Below are positions 22,411-37,863 of a stretch of 39,354 bases of DNA, piece by piece. The notes below the pieces were generated by a model. It searched no databases, was not told where the DNA came from, and was given only the letters and a program-made list of their open reading frames with translations. The number at the start of each line of letters is the position of its first letter. The stretch's first letter is position 1. The translations under genes and the position numbers were made by a program. The DNA comes from Candidatus Kapaibacterium sp. (GTDB lineage: Bacteria; Bacteroidota; Ignavibacteria; Kapaibacteriales; UBA4661): positions 1-39,354 of the forward strand of contig JANYIG010000299.1 in the NCBI GenBank assembly GCA_025358765.1, written 5' to 3'.

Positions 22411-25400
22411 TCACTCTTTCGCTTTCTGTTGTGAATGTACAAGTTTTGTCAAGCGGCGCTGCTGTCGTTGGAAGAAATCCAAAATCCGCTCTCTCAGCGC
22501 CAGCAAAAGCAGCGCCAAGGCACTGGCGAAGGCTGTAATTCCAACGAGTATAAGCCCGTTAAAATATACCGAAGCTGTCTGGCGCGTTGAAAAGGGAAGC
22601 CGTTTTTGCGGCATCAAAATCGGGTAGTGCGTGAGCGGCAGCACCTCTGGGTGCTGGACGTTGCTGGAATCTCGTTCTCCTTGTTTTTTGAGAATGTCTT
22701 TGAATTTATCTCGTGCTTCGCTGATTTGACGGTGAATTTCTTGATTACCGTATTGTTCCTGTGTTGCGGTACGGTGCGCTTCGATGAGCGAGTCTATCGC
22801 AGGGCGATTTTTATCAAAATCTGCGATTTGCCGCGTTGTGCGTTCGACAATTTGATTTAACTCATTCACACGTCCAGCGTTGATGCCGCTATTGGCACTG
22901 TCGGCAAGAAGTTCGTCGCGTGTTGTTTTGGCTGCTTCATGTTCATCGTGCATTTTCAACACCGCTTTGGATGCGGCTTGCAATGAGTCGTCAAGCGGCT
23001 GGAAGGAATTGAAGGAGTCTTGCATCGTCATCAACCCCTCGTATGCCCAGCGCGACGGAATAATCTGGCAAACTTCTGGTATTTCCGCATGAGCGTCGAA
23101 TTTCAGGTGATCCATCTCACTATAGGGAATGAGAGCACCGCCGAAGATAATTTGTGGAATAAGAATAAGCGGAACAATATTGAATGCAGCTTTGGCGGAA
23201 AGATTCGGAATGGACGACACCAGCAAGCCTAATGCCACGCCGTTGATAGACACGATAGACAAAAAGAGCCAATACGGTACGAATAACTCATGCAACTGCA
23301 ACACCGGAAACGCAACCGCCAAAAAGAGCGCATTTTGTACAAGCGAAAATACTGTGAGCGTGATAAACTTCGAGGCGTAATAACTGGTGTTGCGGATATT
23401 GAGCATCCGTTCGCGAAGCAAAATAGCCGCATCTTTGATAATCTCATCAATGCTATTCGTAATTGCCAAAAATGTTGCAATAATGACCGCCAGAAAGATA
23501 AAAATGTTCACGTTGTCGTTTTGGAAGAACGTATAACCCACATCTTTCACTGACGTATGCCGCAAAATAAAGCTCACAGCCAGTGCCAGCACAGGTGCTT
23601 CAAAGAATGTGATGATAAGATTTGAGCGATCGCGCAGCTTATTCAGGAAATTCCGGCGTAGCAATACCGTGAATTGGCTCCACTGCTCTTTGAGCGAAGG
23701 TTCGCGGGGAGGAGGAAGTGAGACTTTTTGGCTATCCTCAATCATTAAACGATGCACTGCCGAACGAAATATTTGATAGCGATTTTTCCAGTAATCTGGT
23801 GAATACTTGCGTTTAGGGAGCGGAATGCCATCAATGTCGCGTAGTGGTTCTTCTAATGTTGCAAGTAGAATGTCCGGCTCTACCTGTTCATTCACGAGTA
23901 CGGCTGCTTCCTCGGTGATGTTTAGAATAGATGGGTCAATGTGCTGCATTTTGCTGTGTGTGCGGAAATACGCCAGTGCTACGTGTACATCACCAAAAAA
24001 TGCCATTTTACCACCCTTGTCTAAGAACAAGATTTTGTCGAACATTTTATAAATCTTGCTCGAAGGCTGGTGAATCACGACAAAAATAATCTTGCCTTTG
24101 AGCGTTAGGCGCTGCAATAGCTCAATGATTTTCTCCGAATCTTTCGACGATAAGCCACTCGTTGGCTCATCCAGAAAATACACATCCGCATCGGAGAGCA
24201 ATTCCAAGCCGATATTCAGGCGTTTACGCTGTCCGCCTGAGAGCGTGCGCTGTGTGGGGCTTCCCGCCTTGATGTTCCGCTTTTCCGCAAGGTCAATATC
24301 CACAATCGTCTGTTCGACGAGCGCATTAATTTCCGCTTCCGTTTTTTCGGGGTGGCGGAGTTTTGCGTTGTAATACAAGTTCTCGAAGACCGTCAGATTC
24401 TCGAACAGCAAGTCGTCTTGCGGCACATAGCCGAGGTAATCCTTGAGCGCCGAGTATTCGCGGTGCAGATTGTACGAATTGAGTTCAATTGCGCCTTCGT
24501 TTGGCTTTGTGTAGCCGTTGATGATGTTTAGCAGTGTAGATTTGCCAGAACCGGACGGACCGATGACGCACACAAGGTCGCCGTAGTCAATCTCGAACGA
24601 GATATCGTCGAGCGCAAGCGAATTGTCTTGGAAACGGAAACGAATCTGCCGCGCAATAAAATCTTTGAAGCGGAACGGTTCAATCCGACATATTCCAGCA
24701 AGAAAGCTCAGTTGCAACACGCTTTTGCCAATGACGACATTGCATTCGTCTGCCAGCACAACGGGATGTTTGACGTTCTTGGATTCGTAGGCGATGCGAT
24801 ACGGACAGCCTTTGGGGTCAAGCGAGTGCTGGTATGTACCGTCTGCTCTTTGCTGGCGTGTAATCTGGCATTTCCAAAACGAATCCATATCGTCGGCAAG
24901 CACAATATCCGATTCAGGATGGTTCCCAATGATGTAACGCCCACTGTCCGTCTCAAGTTTGAATACTTCGCTTTCCATGCCGTATTGGAAGGCGAGTTTA
25001 CGGAGATTGATTGGACAGTTATCAATCACGACGTTATCGTTAAGGTTCACATAAACTTGACCATCAATCGTTTGCCCGTTCACAAGGAGTTTTGCACCAT
25101 CGGCATCAAGCGGTGTCAGGAGAATAAAAAGTTTCGTGAATTCAATAAGCAAAATATCGTCCATACTCGGCATTTGCGAAAGGACGTATTCCGGCGTACC
25201 AGTATTCTCCTGCACTCTACGTGACACAAACAGCGCAAAACCGAGCAAGAGTTTGGTTTTTAATGAGAAATAATAGTTAAGGTCTTCAAAATTGATGGTG
25301 TAATTGTTAATGAGGATGCCTTCATTATGCTGAATTTTTGTGGCGTTTAGGAGATTTGGCATCCCCTCGCCTGCAAGTTGTGTACCAGCAACGGATATCC

Positions 25401-25989
25401 TGTTCTTGTTATTTTTGGGCAGAACGACGTAAATGGAGTTGATTTTGTAAATCTCGATATCTAAAAACTTGAAAGGCAGAACAATGTCGGCAAATGCTGT
25501 CGCATCGCTGATGCGGATTACGTGAATAGAGGATTGTTGGGCGGTTTCGAGCGTTACACCTGTTGGTAGGTCGTACACCGTCTCAATAAAACTAACATCC
25601 TCAATGTTTACGCCAATCAACCCACCAATACGTCTTGCCGTCTCACGTTCAGCATCATCCACCGAATCGGAAGCCGCCAACTCGTACACTTTCATCAAGA
25701 TGAACACGCGATTCTCGTACGAAAAGCCTTGCCGAATCTGTGTTGCAGCTTGTACCTCGTCAATATCCTCGCGGACGAAGTGCTCAAACTGCGCGAAAAG
25801 GTAGCTCGCAACCGGTTCGTGGTAAATAGTGTTCAAATAATTGCGGACGTACTCCAATTCTGCTTGACTGACCTGATTATCAGACTTAGCAAGAACGCTG
25901 AACAACTTGACCGTGTTGATAAGAAGCGTATTCTGCAAACTCTCCTGCAAGGAGAGATTTTGGGACAAGTCAGGTAGGGTATTTGCCAT
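22411..25989 (-). CDS. ABCG-type transporter with TerB-like and FHA-like domains
   Basis: One chain of 1192 residues from the ATG at 25989 (a TTG at 26007 would add six). Order: a TerB-like all-helical domain at about 20-140 (acidic, KSDNQVSQAELEYV, ASDSVDDAERETARR); two short beta repeats (INNYTINFEDL, IDNCPINLRKL); an FHA-like domain at about 340-432 (RYIIGNHPESDIVL). The ABC ATPase has Walker A GPSGSGKST at 477-485, signature LSGGQRKR at 583-590 and Walker B VYFLDEP at 603-609. Six C-terminal helices form an ABC2 membrane domain like ABCG exporters. The last outer loop carries about 120 residues of predicted coiled coil (SKAVLKMHDEHEAAK onward). FHA domains read phosphothreonine, so control by a Ser/Thr kinase is possible. 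Substrate unknown; probably an exporter. Confidence 0.85.
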   Translation of the reverse strand: MANTLPDLSQNLSLQESLQNTLLINTVKLFSVLAKSDNQVSQAELEYVRNYLNTIYHEPVASYLFAQFEHFVREDIDEVQAATQIRQGFSYENRVFILMKVYELAASDSVDDAERETARRIGGLIGVNIEDVSFIETVYDLPTGVTLETAQQSSIHVIRISDATAFADIVLPFKFLDIEIYKINSIYVVLPKNNKNRISVAGTQLAGEGMPNLLNATKIQHNEGILINNYTINFEDLNYYFSLKTKLLLGFALFVSRRVQENTGTPEYVLSQMPSMDDILLIEFTKLFILLTPLDADGAKLLVNGQTIDGQVYVNLNDNVVIDNCPINLRKLAFQYGMESEVFKLETDSGRYIIGNHPESDIVLADDMDSFWKCQITRQQRADGTYQHSLDPKGCPYRIAYESKNVKHPVVLADECNVVIGKSVLQLSFLAGICRIEPFRFKDFIARQIRFRFQDNSLALDDISFEIDYGDLVCVIGPSGSGKSTLLNIINGYTKPNEGAIELNSYNLHREYSALKDYLGYVPQDDLLFENLTVFENLYYNAKLRHPEKTEAEINALVEQTIVDIDLAEKRNIKAGSPTQRTLSGGQRKRLNIGLELLSDADVYFLDEPTSGLSSKDSEKIIELLQRLTLKGKIIFVVIHQPSSKIYKMFDKILFLDKGGKMAFFGDVHVALAYFRTHSKMQHIDPSILNITEEAAVLVNEQVEPDILLATLEEPLRDIDGIPLPKRKYSPDYWKNRYQIFRSAVHRLMIEDSQKVSLPPPREPSLKEQWSQFTVLLRRNFLNKLRDRSNLIITFFEAPVLALAVSFILRHTSVKDVGYTFFQNDNVNIFIFLAVIIATFLAITNSIDEIIKDAAILLRERMLNIRNTSYYASKFITLTVFSLVQNALFLAVAFPVLQLHELFVPYWLFLSIVSINGVALGLLVSSIPNLSAKAAFNIVPLILIPQIIFGGALIPYSEMDHLKFDAHAEIPEVCQIIPSRWAYEGLMTMQDSFNSFQPLDDSLQAASKAVLKMHDEHEAAKTTRDELLADSANSGINAGRVNELNQIVERTTRQIADFDKNRPAIDSLIEAHRTATQEQYGNQEIHRQISEARDKFKDILKKQGERDSSNVQHPEVLPLTHYPILMPQKRLPFSTRQTASVYFNGLILVGITAFASALALLLLALRERILDFFQRQQRRLTKLVHSQQKAKE

Positions 25990-26133
25990 AAATAACGGGT
26001 TCCGCAAAAACGATGAGCGAACAAAAAGGATTGGGCTTTAAGCAACAGCAAGTATAATCGAAACCAGCATTAGAAGCAAGCAGGACTTTTACCTCAGGAT
26101 AAAATTGTCACAAAGATAGAGCTAAATGCCTCA

Positions 26134-27060
26134 TTAATTCATCATCTTTTTGACTTTGCGTTTGATGCGGTATGGAATTGTCCATCGTAGCAATTTTTCC
26201 CAGATGTAATTGTCGAATTGCATTTCGCGTATCATATACGGCGGGTGCGTGATTGGAAAGGACATTGCTTCGGTCGGCACGTTTGCGGTCGGATGTTCGG
26301 CATCGGCGATATGCGTTGCTTCGCCGCCAAAACCGATGTTGGTAATCTGGTTGTAATTCGGAATCACCGAAAGCATATTTTGCGTCCACACAGCAAACGT
26401 TAGTTGGTAATCCCACGTGGTTTCCTTGCCTTCGTAGGCAGATTGAAAAATTTTTGTCCAATAAGTAACGGCGTTTTTATCACCAAGCATTTCTGCCAAA
26501 AGGCCATTGTTGCGGACGTGGGGGAAATTCTTCATTTCAAGGTCATAATATTGCCATACCCGCTTCCACGTTGCCCAACCGGTAATAGGATGATACCGCG
26601 AGAAAAAGTAACTGTGGCGGTCTTCTTCGCGTTTGCATCGGAAATTTGCCCCAGAAATCACGCCTATGCGGTTGTCGTGGCGATAATATTCGAGCATTTC
26701 CTGACAATATCGAAAGAAGGTAGAGTGCGGCACACAGTCATCCTCAAGGATAATTGCCTCTTCCACGTTCTGAAATACCCATTGCAAGCCGCTTGCCACG
26801 CGCCCTCGGCAACCCATATTTTCCGGCGCATAGTTCGTAAGCACTTCGCAATCCCAATCCACACCGTTTTCGATGATAGCTCGTGCTGCACGAATACGTT
26901 CTGGTTCTTCGGGACGATGCGAGCGTACACCATCAGCAATGATAAGTAATTTTTTAGGCTTGGCGGCGCGGATTTGCTCAAAGACAGCAATGGTTGTTTC
27001 GGGGCGATTGAAGATAATAAAGGCAACAGGAGTGGTCAGTTCAAAAGTGTTCATAGACAT
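26134..27060 (-). CDS. Glycosyltransferase, GNT-I/GT2-like
   Basis: Probable glycosyltransferase of 308 residues with a GT-A fold. The N-terminus (PVAFIIFNRPETTIAVFEQI, residues 11-30) is the nucleotide-sugar-binding start of GT2/GT13-like enzymes. IILEDDCVPHS at 103-113 holds the metal-binding acidic triad (EDD), and GWATWKRVW at about 160-168 is typical of this group, as in the HlpA-like proteins. It would add a sugar to an unknown glycan, probably for surface polysaccharide or protein glycosylation. The ATG at 27060 is used; ATG at 27054 would give two residues less. The upstream promoter signals are on the same strand. It stands alone and convergent genes are absent. Confidence 0.85.
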   Translation of the reverse strand: MSMNTFELTTPVAFIIFNRPETTIAVFEQIRAAKPKKLLIIADGVRSHRPEEPERIRAARAIIENGVDWDCEVLTNYAPENMGCRGRVASGLQWVFQNVEEAIILEDDCVPHSTFFRYCQEMLEYYRHDNRIGVISGANFRCKREEDRHSYFFSRYHPITGWATWKRVWQYYDLEMKNFPHVRNNGLLAEMLGDKNAVTYWTKIFQSAYEGKETTWDYQLTFAVWTQNMLSVIPNYNQITNIGFGGEATHIADAEHPTANVPTEAMSFPITHPPYMIREMQFDNYIWEKLLRWTIPYRIKRKVKKMMN

Positions 27061-30083: not shown

Positions 30084-30857
30084 ATGAAATTATTTTCGAA
30101 GTTCGCTGCCACTCTCCTTCTGGCATCAGTTGCTGGCGGAGCCGCTGTGAACGCACAGCCTATTGAAACCAAGGTTTATGTTCCTCCTTCATCGCTTGTA
30201 TTTCGCAATTTGGACAGTTTATCGAAGGCAAAAGTAACATGGAAGGGGCTGTCTTCTTACAGCCAAAAAAGTACATACGCGAACAAATATACGATAGCAC
30301 TCAATCTCGGTACGCGCGTTTGTGACTCATTCGTGGCGGTGCAGGCAAAAGACAAAAGTAATTTTTCGCCGATGGCAATGACCGTTTCTGGTCTGAGCAA
30401 CAAACTTGGTGCGGATATTGAGCAGACGTTGAACGAAAAGATGTTTGACCTCGTGAAAAAAGACAAATGGAACGATGTACGCGACATGCTTGATGCACAG
30501 CAAAACACGATTAAAGAGAAACTCAACAAACTTGATAAAGACGCAGCCGTACTCGTAACAATTGGGGGTTGGCTACAAGGACTTCATATTGTGAGCAAAG
30601 CACTAAACGCAACGTATAATCCCGATGCCACTTCCGTGATTCGCAATGCAAAACTTGTTGAGTATTTGATAGCAGAACTTAATGGTTTGAGCGCACAGGC
30701 AAAGGGTAATGATTTAGTGAAAAAAATCAGTACACAATTGCCAGAAGTCAAAACGCTCGTGAACGTTGAAAAGAACAAACCTATTCCACAAGAAAGCGTG
30801 AAGAAAGTTTATCAAATCACGTCAGGACTTGTGAAGGATATTGAAAGCGCGAAGTAA
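30084..30857 (+). CDS. Secreted protein of unknown function
   Basis: 257 residues from the ATG at 30084. The start is chosen because GAGG lies 7 bp upstream; a GTG at 30072 would add four residues. The signal peptide is residues 1-25 (KFAATLLLASVAGGAAVNAQ). The mature part is predicted to be mostly helical and rich in Lys, Asn and Leu, with no cysteines except C near residue 76 (RVCDSF). It has segments such as LSNKLGADIEQTLNEK, MLDAQQNTIKEKLNKLDKD and VTIGGWLQGLHIVSKAL. No family is recognised. The GGWLQGLHI pattern recalls helical bundle proteins of FCB bacteria. It has its own promoter and a strong terminator, so it is transcribed alone. Confidence 0.75.
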   Translation: MKLFSKFAATLLLASVAGGAAVNAQPIETKVYVPPSSLVFRNLDSLSKAKVTWKGLSSYSQKSTYANKYTIALNLGTRVCDSFVAVQAKDKSNFSPMAMTVSGLSNKLGADIEQTLNEKMFDLVKKDKWNDVRDMLDAQQNTIKEKLNKLDKDAAVLVTIGGWLQGLHIVSKALNATYNPDATSVIRNAKLVEYLIAELNGLSAQAKGNDLVKKISTQLPEVKTLVNVEKNKPIPQESVKKVYQITSGLVKDIESAK

Positions 30858-30871
30858 GAATAAACAGAATG

Positions 30872-30924
30872 CTAAAACAATAAAGGGTTGGAACCATAAT
30901 GGTTCCAACCCTTTATTGTTTTAG
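30872..30924. terminator. Bidirectional terminator, 24-bp perfect stem
   Basis: CTAAAACAATAAAGGGTTGG and AACC (30872-30895) pair perfectly with 30901-30924 around the loop ATAAT. Each arm ends in a run of A or T, so it works for both convergent genes. The length is exceptional for an intrinsic terminator. Confidence 0.85.
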
Positions 30925-34800: not shown

Positions 34801-37800
34801 ATGTATCACCACCACCACCACCATCTGCCGCGCCAATGCCCCTCTGCATGGTTGATTGCCGCCCTCGTGCTGGTAGCAGTATGGGGTACACAGCATACCA
34901 ATGCCTATGCTCAACGCGTGACGGACAACACGCGTGGTAGTCGTGGCAAGGAGTTCCGTTTTGCATTCTTACCAAACTTTCATGGGGGAAACGACGTTAA
35001 TTCCCGCAACCTGAATGATTCGCTCTACATCTTCGTCACCTGCGATAAACCCACAAACGGTACGATTTCTTACCGCAACCGCACGGGTCAACAATTCTCC
35101 CAATCGTTTCAGATTGCCGACCCTATGCAAATTTTTACGTTTGCGCTCAAGTTTCAAGGCTTCGAGATAGAAGGTGTCAATAACGGGCAGCAGGGGAATC
35201 CAAGTTCGCAAAATGAAACTCCAGCGCTGCAATCATTCCGCGTGACGGCGGATGAAGATGTTACCGTCTATGGTTTGAACCAAGCACGCTACTCAAGCGA
35301 TGCGTTTTTGGCACTCCCCGTACGGTCGCTTGGCAAGGAATATGTCGTGATGGCGTACAACAGCGATGGACAGGGACTTTCCTTCAACATTAACGCACCA
35401 AACACCAGTACGCCATCCCAATTTGCTATTGTTGCAACGGAAAATGATACACAGGTTCGTATTACTCCGAGCGCTCCCACGCTAACGAATGCAACGGCAG
35501 GAACCCGCACCATTCTGCTGAATCAAGGCGAAGTGTATTTGGTGCAAGCGGATTTACGAATTCAGGGCGGATTGGCAGATTTGACTGGTTCACGTATCAA
35601 AGCAGACAAACCGATAGCCGTATTTGGCAGCCATCAGCGAGCCACAATTCCAGTACGTCAGCGTGACCAGCTAAACTCCCGCGACCATCTTGTGGAGCAA
35701 CTCCCCGGATTGGAAACATGGGGCAAAAAAGCCTTCATCACGCCATATGCGCCACCCCGTGATGAAAAACCGATTGGAACAGATTTATATCGAGTGTTAG
35801 CTGCGTACGACACTACGAAAGTTTTCTTGAACGGCGTAGTAATCACGACGCTTAATGCCGGACAGTACTACGAAGCAGCGCTGAACGCGCCCGGCTGGAT
35901 TACGGCAACCGATCAGATTTTGGTAGCACAGTTCAAGAAAACCTCGAATACCGGCAGCAATGGGGCTATTATGAACAACGGCGACCCATTTATGATGATT
36001 ATTCCAACTGTTGAGCAATATGACAATAGCTACCGTTTTATTAACGTGGAAGTGCTGGATCCAACACTTTCAACGGTGGTTCCAAGCGCACAAGTCTTTG
36101 AAGAGCACTTTGTAACGATCGTGATTCCTACGCTTGGCGCGGCTGGGTTATTGCTGGATGAAAAACCTGTTCCCACAAGCGCTTTCCAACCCATTGTCAA
36201 TTCTGGATTTTCGTTTGCAAATCTTTCTGTAGCGGGTGGTGTTCACACGGCGCGGGCAGATTCAGCGTTTGGGATTTATGTCTATGGCTACGGTTTGGCA
36301 AATTCATACGGCTATATCGGCGGTGGAAAGCTTCGCATCATCGCTCCCGACCGCGATGCGCCCTTATTACGTGGGATGAATAATTGTTTTTCGCTTGTCG
36401 GTACAGCATATGACACGCTTGCAACGGATTCACGCATCGCCTCGGTGCAACTTCAGCCTACAACGGTTGCAAACATACACCTATCGTTGGATGAGTTTAC
36501 GCCGTTTGTGGATTCGGTAAATTTTCGTGCGGACTTGGTGAACATCTATCAAGATGGTGGCTTTACGGCTACTGTGCGGGATTCAATCGGTTTCATCACG
36601 CGACGTACGTTTCCTGTATATGGCTTTACTGTTGGATTAGAAGGTCAAGGTGCGAACTTATCCGCTCAACGGCGTGATTTCAGCATCAATACAGGCCGCA
36701 GTCGTAGTTTCCCCGTGACACTTGTGAATTATGGTGCTGCAACGCAGACGATTTCAACGCTCTCCTTCGCAAATAATACAGTTGGTTTTTTCGTGCAGGA
36801 GCAATTACCCATTATTCTCGCGCCGAGCAGTCGTGCGACCTTGAATATCCGTTTTACAGCAATGCGTGACGGCACATTTGTGGATACGTTGATTATAGGT
36901 ACTACTTGTGCAAGCCGCTCTGTGGCTATAGTTTCCATCGCAGCAGGTAAGGATACAATTACACCAACAGCAGCAAGAGTAACCGATGAATGCGCACGAA
37001 CGGTAATGCTGAATTTCACCGATGTGGGTTTGTATGCGACGGGTATTGCCCGCTTGGAGGCGGAAACATTGGTAAATTGCACTGTTCGTTTTGATGCAAT
37101 TATGAATTCTGATATAGTGCGGGGTGTGGTGAATATTCTTGATCCCAGAAAAGATGCCATCTATAGCCTACGGGTGCAAGATTCATCGGGGAATATCCTC
37201 AGACTGCGTGATACAGTGCAAGGATTGACGGTACGCCTCGTGAACCGCGATACGGTGAGTGCATTTGGTGGACAGCCGATTACAACGTTGCCTTGCAGAA
37301 CGCTTGTTTACAGAAATATTGGGCTACAGCCTTTTGTGATTGACCACCTAACTCCGCGTGGCAACATATATTTCTCTCTTCCATTCACACAATTTCCGAT
37401 AACATTAGCTCCGGGGGAATCGCGTGGCATACAGGTATGTTTTGCCCCACTCGAAAGCCGTGATTACCGCGACACCCTCTTGCTCGAGCGTTTTTGCACG
37501 GCAGATACACTTGTGCTTACAGGTTCTGGTGTACCCAGCATTGCGCTTGGAACTACGCGTTGCAACGCCGAAGTGCAGATCACAACGTCCTCCGCGCCGC
37601 GTGATTACTTTATGGAACAAAACTTCCCCAATCCCACATCAGGGCTCACACAAATCACTTTTGGTATGCAAGCACAAGGCTACACAACCCTTCGGCTCTA
37701 TAATGCCCTTGGGACGCTCATAGCAAATATTATGGAAGGCGTTATCCCTTCGGGCATAGGCACCGTGACGCTCGACACATCTACGTTGGAGAGTGGTGTC

Positions 37801-37863
37801 TATTTTTACGAACTGCAAAGCAACGGAAAGCGGCTCGTAAAGTTGATGTATGTTGTTCGGTAG
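34801..37863 (+). CDS. T9SS cargo with IgGFc-binding-like domain
   Basis: Secreted 1020-residue protein. It starts M-Y then six His, then a signal peptide (about 14-38, ending NAYAQ). An IgGFc-binding N-terminal-like domain follows, about 45-430 (FRFAFLPNFHGGNDV, FRVTADEDVTVYGLN, GSHQRATIPVRQRDQL, FMMIIPTVEQY). The middle (about 500-930) holds repeated beta domains resembling CARDB/ASPM-like modules of surface proteins (FSINTGRSRSFPVTLVNYG, LTFRNIGLQPFVI-like pattern). The C-terminal 85 residues (FMEQNFPNPTSGLTQI, TTLRLYNALG, GVYFYELQSNGK, KLMYVVR) form a type-A T9SS sorting domain, so the protein is exported and probably anchored to the cell surface or released. No T9SS machinery genes are in the window. 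No Shine-Dalgarno is visible. Confidence 0.88.
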   Translation: MYHHHHHHLPRQCPSAWLIAALVLVAVWGTQHTNAYAQRVTDNTRGSRGKEFRFAFLPNFHGGNDVNSRNLNDSLYIFVTCDKPTNGTISYRNRTGQQFSQSFQIADPMQIFTFALKFQGFEIEGVNNGQQGNPSSQNETPALQSFRVTADEDVTVYGLNQARYSSDAFLALPVRSLGKEYVVMAYNSDGQGLSFNINAPNTSTPSQFAIVATENDTQVRITPSAPTLTNATAGTRTILLNQGEVYLVQADLRIQGGLADLTGSRIKADKPIAVFGSHQRATIPVRQRDQLNSRDHLVEQLPGLETWGKKAFITPYAPPRDEKPIGTDLYRVLAAYDTTKVFLNGVVITTLNAGQYYEAALNAPGWITATDQILVAQFKKTSNTGSNGAIMNNGDPFMMIIPTVEQYDNSYRFINVEVLDPTLSTVVPSAQVFEEHFVTIVIPTLGAAGLLLDEKPVPTSAFQPIVNSGFSFANLSVAGGVHTARADSAFGIYVYGYGLANSYGYIGGGKLRIIAPDRDAPLLRGMNNCFSLVGTAYDTLATDSRIASVQLQPTTVANIHLSLDEFTPFVDSVNFRADLVNIYQDGGFTATVRDSIGFITRRTFPVYGFTVGLEGQGANLSAQRRDFSINTGRSRSFPVTLVNYGAATQTISTLSFANNTVGFFVQEQLPIILAPSSRATLNIRFTAMRDGTFVDTLIIGTTCASRSVAIVSIAAGKDTITPTAARVTDECARTVMLNFTDVGLYATGIARLEAETLVNCTVRFDAIMNSDIVRGVVNILDPRKDAIYSLRVQDSSGNILRLRDTVQGLTVRLVNRDTVSAFGGQPITTLPCRTLVYRNIGLQPFVIDHLTPRGNIYFSLPFTQFPITLAPGESRGIQVCFAPLESRDYRDTLLLERFCTADTLVLTGSGVPSIALGTTRCNAEVQITTSSAPRDYFMEQNFPNPTSGLTQITFGMQAQGYTTLRLYNALGTLIANIMEGVIPSGIGTVTLDTSTLESGVYFYELQSNGKRLVKLMYVVR

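Follow-up and report, generated by a model that had tools for sequence, protein, structure and literature searches.

A TerB-containing ABCG-type half-transporter with FHA-like modules and a co-occurring secreted partner family in Candidatus Kapaibacterium and related bacteria

Much less is understood about the ABCG-type transporters of bacteria than about those of eukaryotes. Among the closest described systems is Rv1747 of Mycobacterium tuberculosis, an FHA-FHA-ABC-ABC2 protein encoded with the kinase PknF. Other described systems share individual parts of such an architecture. The FHA domains of EssC lack the phosphothreonine-binding residues and so far contribute only to protein stability (PMC4925161). 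MacB and FtsX are established mechanotransmitters that act via periplasmic helices (PMC5985334, PMC7668044). The SiaC protein of Pseudomonas aeruginosa is phosphorylated at T68 by the kinase SiaB and dephosphorylated by SiaA (PMC7647112). Here, we analyse a stretch of 39,354 nucleotides from Candidatus Kapaibacterium sp. (GCA_025358765.1, contig JANYIG010000299.1, positions 1-39,354 of the forward strand; hereafter the window). The minus strand of the window encodes at 22411-25989 a protein of 1192 amino acids, in which a TerB domain and three FHA-like modules precede an ABCG-type half-transporter, as recognized from the open reading frame, Pfam, AlphaFold2 and Foldseek. We favour the reading, at a probability of about 0.6, that this protein is an ABCG-type exporter working with a periplasmic partner through an outer loop and regulated through its TerB/pseudo-FHA arm.

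The open reading frame is genuine, as first reported, and starts with an ATG at 25989, with a TTG in frame at 26007. The encoded protein is a half-transporter of the ABCG type (type V fold), a class of pumps for lipids or drugs. Pfam matches cover ABC_tran at residues 460-611 (E 2.5e-30) and ABC2_membrane at residues 772-988 (E 6.6e-22). Based on Pfam and invariant columns, the ABC ATPase domain spans residues 443-680 (23950-24663; all features of this protein lie on the minus strand). Its motifs are complete, with Walker A (GPSGSGKST), the Q-loop, the signature LSGGQ, Walker B with the glutamate E608 and the H-loop H640, and these columns are invariant in the family alignment. The membrane domain at residues 766-995 (23005-23694) is supported by Pfam and by ABCG folds as the top structural matches, and it follows the ATPase in the chain as the ABCG type requires. 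The last helix, at residues 1140-1191 (22417-22572), holds the last transmembrane segment in the AlphaFold2 model. By sequence, the nearest proteins of solved structure are ABCG and PDR transporters, and the best Foldseek matches of the predicted structure are all ABCG proteins or the related Cdr1, including ABCG5/G8, AtABCG25 and ABCG2. The whole-protein model has a mean predicted local distance difference test score of 79.9, and modelling residues 1-440 by themselves gave a matching structure at moderate confidence (predicted template modelling score 0.52, six sequences). The predicted order is TerB helices at about residues 8-140, beta modules at 155-233, 254-327 and 341-437, the ABC ATPase and the membrane domain. 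Pfam, hhalign and AlphaFold2 thus bear out the series of domains named by the first-pass annotation, namely TerB, beta repeats, an FHA-like fold, an ABC ATPase and an ABC2 membrane domain. The linker between ATPase and membrane domain (residues ~690-705) carries in the family a near-invariant CxxC motif, ECxxCGNVNPE, which is lost in the window protein and its paralogue. At this position, ABCG proteins carry their NPxDF motif.

Related loci were recovered by genome scans, and the best 80 homologue loci of at least 80 were studied. They come from two further genomes of Candidatus Kapaibacterium, with 63% identity, as well as from Delongbacteria, Cloacimonadota, Chlorobiota and many Bacteroidota. 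The window genome itself encodes a paralogue with 58% identity on another contig. A long form with Walker A at about residue 450-490 and extra FHA-like modules is shared by the window protein, the paralogue and the proteins of loci L032-L034, L036 and L061. The TerB-ABCG forms of Bacteroidota are shorter, with Walker A at about residue 280. A tree of the core separates TerB-ABCG from FHA-ABCG proteins with a Shimodaira-Hasegawa-like approximate likelihood ratio support of 100. The window protein falls in a long-form clade of Kapabacteria, Delongbacteria and Cloacimonadota (support 96), which is sister to the Bacteroidota forms (100). Judged by sequence, TerB-ABCG proteins are a family of their own, distinct from FHA-ABCG transporters.

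A large helical insertion precedes the last transmembrane helix. AlphaFold2 predicts a helical hairpin of about 110 residues in the outer loop (residues 997-1106; 22672-23001), with helices at 997-1030, 1037-1080 and 1083-1106, before the last helix starts at residue 1140. The loop ahead of the last helix has a median length of 198 amino acids in the family, with 149 in the window protein and 267 in the paralogue, compared to 32 in the FHA-ABCG protein of locus L006. Likewise, the tail beyond the conserved SRW-E motif has a median of 252 amino acids, compared to 56-95 in four FHA-ABCG proteins. The insertion had initially been described as a coiled coil. Heptad periodicity exceeds that of shuffled sequences in the paralogue's loop (p 0.008) and not in the window copy. 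Helical hairpin is therefore the safer term.

The periplasmic partner guessed at for this loop has a good candidate in a secreted or lipoprotein family that tracks the transporter across genomes and adjoins it in most well-flanked loci. The family consists of homologues of a lipoprotein that in Bacteroidota and Cloacimonadota is encoded next to TerB-ABCG genes. It is unnamed in both Pfam and NCBIfam, and a search for relatives of solved structure found none. The window encodes a member on the plus strand at 30084-30857, a secreted protein of 257 amino acids found by hmmsearch with the lipoprotein-family profile (E 5.9e-10). By BLAST, this protein matches the product of the gene that immediately follows the transporter gene of the Cloacimonadota locus L061 (26% over 258 amino acids, E 2e-16). 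Directly 3' of the partner gene, a terminator-like hairpin with a 20-bp stem (30875-30921) suggests that the transcript ends there. Of the 51 loci flanked by 3 kb or more on each side, 34 have the lipoprotein gene as a neighbour at a distance of up to 2.5 kb, often just tens of bases, and adjacency is usual in Bacteroidota. Among 198 genomes of the phylum, the partner profile was positive in all five TerB-ABCG carriers and in none of 193 non-carriers (Fisher p 4e-10 before any phylogeny correction). All five genomes with long-form relatives also encode the partner, even though it is unlinked to the transporter in Kapabacteria and Delongbacteria. The window genome encodes two of the transporters and as many partners. 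Fourteen further carriers, in which the TerB-ABCG locus has no adjacent copy or clear match, yielded ten strong matches, one marginal match and three without any. Overall, 20 of 24 carriers have a strong match. Owing to shared ancestry, independent events are fewer than genomes, but several phyla show the link. The co-occurrence of a pump and an exported protein in almost every carrier therefore makes it probable that both belong to one uncharacterised transport system.

The cytoplasmic arm begins with a TerB domain at about residues 22-140 (25570-25926), which is helical in the AlphaFold2 model. The TerB similarity had been left to a profile search, and the match to PF05099 is clear, covering residues 26-132 with an E of 1.8e-11 and 44.8 bits against a curated cut-off of 24.4. 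At E 0.01, the Pfam domain was matched in 29 of 45 family members. Foldseek matches to the region include PG1108 (2h5n; probability 0.98-0.99, E about 0.2). Among the conserved acidic positions of the two TerB helical repeats, D37 is kept in 30 and D108 in 27 of the 45 members, with an acidic residue in part of the remainder. E44 is kept in 21 of the 45, and most short forms do not align at E114. In the Delongbacteria protein of L034 (9446-12901), a GAF domain (E 5.8e-15) replaces the TerB of its relatives, while the FHA-like/ABCG chassis stays the same. The N-terminus is therefore likely an exchangeable sensor, and we read the arm as a sensor arm on these grounds.

The beta modules behind TerB bring in the question of kinase control. 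Module 3 (residues 341-437; 24679-24969) is FHA-like without the phosphothreonine-binding residues, as based on hhalign, Foldseek and a residue tally. Module 2 (residues 254-327; 25009-25230) is FHA-like by hhalign and AlphaFold2. Compared by hhalign with FHA domains of true FHA-ABCG proteins, which exist in the same phylum (L006-L009), residues 345-436 scored a probability of 96.7% (E 3.5e-10) and residues 250-345 one of 89.5% (E 2e-6). Control scores were 0.1-0.2% for TerB and ABC and at most 1.4% for reversed FHA sequences (0.3% in the case of module 2). Module 1 (residues 155-233; 25291-25527) is possibly FHA-like given its AlphaFold2 strands, and residues 145-255 gave a weak, insignificant hhalign score (7%). 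Three distinct FHA domains were considered and rejected at the sequence level, where modules 2 and 3 are supported and module 1 is a set of predicted strands. No homology among the three modules, or to the beta domain of the short forms, was detected by hhalign. The top Foldseek matches of the arm are almost all FHA structures, including KIF1A and the EssC tandem, with a modest best E of 3.5e-4. The FHA-like character noted initially therefore holds for profile-profile comparison and fold, but Pfam detects no FHA domain in the window protein, the sole hint being Yop-YscD_cpl at residues 343-367 (E 0.076).

The arm could suggest that the protein is a classical FHA-ABCG transporter, in which recognition of phosphothreonine lets a Hanks kinase gate transport, as in Rv1747 with PknF. 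The tandem FHA-like fold ahead of an ABCG core fits this possibility, as do the genuine FHA-ABCG proteins of the same phylum, one of which has an adjoining kinase gene. However, the seven long-form members have the phosphothreonine-site arginine in 0/7, serine in 1/7 and asparagine in 0/7 for module 3. The arginine position is Asn in six of the seven, and the NG motif is mostly CP. Pfam FHA matches at E 0.01 were found in 0/45 family members, and a PF00498 search of the window genome returned no FHA domain. A phmmer search with one kinase query, following the initial suggestion to look for Ser/Thr kinases near homologues, found no Hanks kinase near the best 80 loci and did find one next to the true FHA-ABCG protein of L007. 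The two Hanks kinases of the window genome lie elsewhere in the genome. The tree also sets TerB-ABCG and FHA-ABCG proteins apart. Because of the phosphothreonine-site residues, the genome content and the gene neighbourhood, we reject FHA/kinase gating, and a transporter of the Rv1747 kind is very improbable and largely refuted. The modules have an FHA-like fold from which the phosphothreonine site has been lost. Of the first-pass annotation, the domains, the outer-loop insertion and the periplasmic partner thus stand, and the gating of transport by FHA recognition of phosphothreonine falls.

A link to phosphorylation reappears by another route in Bacteroidota. Clustering of neighbours and Pfam revealed a recurrent operon there, encoding a CheB-like protein, a GAF/PAS-SpoIIE phosphatase, DUF6272 (SiaB-type), SiaC, TerB-ABCG, a lipoprotein of ~300 amino acids and a secreted protein of ~149 amino acids. 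Within 2.5 kb of TerB-ABCG, the 51 well-flanked loci include SiaC in 26, SiaB in 25 and SpoIIE in 20 cases. The SiaC phosphosite is a threonine in 37 of 38 proteins and aligns with the NTSS motif of the solved P. aeruginosa SiaC. The catalytic glutamate of SiaB is present in 35/35, and its asparagine is also invariant. The suspected phosphorylation link is thus backed in the Bacteroidota relatives by an operon with phosphatase, kinase and SiaC, but this operon is not beside the window gene. The Kapabacteria loci L032 and L033 have no Sia genes beside the transporter. The window genome holds seven SiaC-family places, including three SiaB-SiaC pairs, and no TerB-ABCG gene adjoins any of these places. 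Gene linkage does not support a Sia-type input for the window copy, although such an input is possible. Open-access papers yielded nothing relevant on fusions of TerB with ABC proteins, nor on ABC transporters encoded next to SiaC. One of the three SiaB-SiaC pairs lies in an apparent operon (contig C200, 5644-9310) that also encodes CHASE8-HAMP-SpoIIE and a class III nucleotide cyclase, a Sia-type switch whose cyclase is not of the GGDEF type. Two further genes of this genome (L128:5232-6158 and L129:2126-3118) encode SiaC domains that are extended at the N-terminus by about 190-205 residues and are apparent SiaC fusions.

We propose that the half-transporter works as a homodimer whose membrane core would export a substrate that is probably amphipathic or lipid-like. 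From between the last two transmembrane helices, the long helical hairpin would reach into the periplasm and dock the dedicated secreted or lipid-anchored partner. The partner, here the product of 30084-30857, might receive the substrate or couple the ATP cycle to the envelope. The TerB and pseudo-FHA modules would serve as a cytoplasmic docking or sensing arm that gates the ATPase. The input in Bacteroidota is probably a SiaA/SiaB/SiaC-type Ser/Thr partner switch from the same operon, and the input in the window organism is not operon-linked. The wider proposal is an uncharacterised two-part envelope system, made of a TerB/pseudo-FHA ABCG protein and a dedicated loop-bound periplasmic partner and conserved in several phyla, namely Bacteroidota (including Kapabacteria), Delongbacteria, Cloacimonadota and Chlorobiota, which would be a direct SiaABC effector in Bacteroidota. 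This proposal is tentative, and we give it slightly less than an even chance.

Several points weigh against an exporter with a docked partner. The window partner gene lies 4.1 kb from the transporter gene on the opposite strand, with no shared operon. The four carriers without a clear partner form a single derived Prevotella/Cacconaster clade. The Bacteroidota species share ancestry, hence the co-occurrence counts overstate independence. The heptad periodicity of the window copy's loop is not significant against shuffles (p 0.225). The window contains no SiaB, SiaC, SpoIIE or 149-residue secreted gene, and the SiaABC link is missing in the Delongbacteria and Cloacimonadota genomes checked. The docking on the loop, like the export direction and the substrate class, is inferred. 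The main rival is a non-transporting mechanotransmitter like FtsEX-EnvC or MacB, in which ATP binding moves periplasmic helices and switches an envelope partner on or off. A big periplasmic helical extension with a dedicated periplasmic partner would suit such a role, and MacB and FtsX set the precedent (PMC5985334, PMC7668044). The membrane domain, however, matches ABC2_membrane and ABCG folds rather than the four-helix MacB/FtsX type. ABCG proteins of known function are, to our knowledge, transporters. Mechanotransmission is thus unlikely, yet it deserves the most weight among the alternatives. Even less probable is an ordinary ABCG exporter, whose extra domains merely stabilise the protein and whose neighbours reflect operon history rather than shared function. 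Degenerate FHA domains have been proposed to stabilise EssC (PMC4925161), but stabilisation fits poorly with a partner that co-occurs even where the genes are unlinked and with the swapped sensor domain of L034.

Other features of the window include a 308-residue protein encoded just upstream of the transporter (26134-27060, minus strand), which has no Pfam or NCBIfam match and appears glycosyltransferase-like by eye. A plus-strand gene at 34801-37863 encodes a protein with an IgGFc_binding domain and Ig repeats of the HYDIN type, which ends in a Por secretion (type IX) tail at the C-terminus. No RNA families were found in the window. Divergently oriented beside the paralogous TerB-ABCG gene, a long protein (L031:4628-6937) resembles OmpA-type outer-membrane proteins.

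An FHA fold in a transporter need not imply phosphothreonine recognition. Because the family combines a cytoplasmic sensing arm with an unnamed periplasmic partner that is consistently present, the coupling between transporter and partner can be tested directly. The Sia-type switch has so far been known to control a diguanylate cyclase, and its frequent occurrence in the TerB-ABCG operons of Bacteroidota points to a second kind of output. If TerB-ABCG is its direct effector, an ABC transporter would be a new kind of output for the SiaABC signalling module.

Compared with known systems, the window protein resembles Rv1747 in the fusion of N-terminal FHA-fold modules to an ABCG-type half-transporter. 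It differs by TerB in front, FHA modules without a phosphothreonine site and a long outer helical loop, and its family has a secreted partner and no linked Hanks kinase. The ABCG/White half-transporters (ABCG1, ABCG2, ABCG5/G8, AtABCG25) share the order of ATPase and membrane domain as well as the sequence and fold of both, to which the window protein adds a cytoplasmic N-terminal arm of ~440 residues and a helical insertion of at least about 110 residues before the last helix. EssC of type VII secretion, which is among the Foldseek matches, likewise fuses an N-terminal tandem FHA fold without phosphothreonine site to a membrane ATPase, yet this is an FtsK-type secretion ATPase and not an ABC transporter. 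MacB and FtsEX-EnvC likewise combine an ABC ATPase with helices that extend into the periplasm and with a partner there, but their membrane domain is of a different type and MacB and FtsEX lack a TerB or FHA-like arm. The Bacteroidota operons resemble SiaABCD of P. aeruginosa in their SpoIIE-type phosphatase, SiaB-type kinase and SiaC with its phosphothreonine. They continue, however, with TerB-ABCG and a lipoprotein where SiaABCD has the diguanylate cyclase SiaD, while the Sia-type operon of the window genome adjoins a nucleotide cyclase rather than the transporter.

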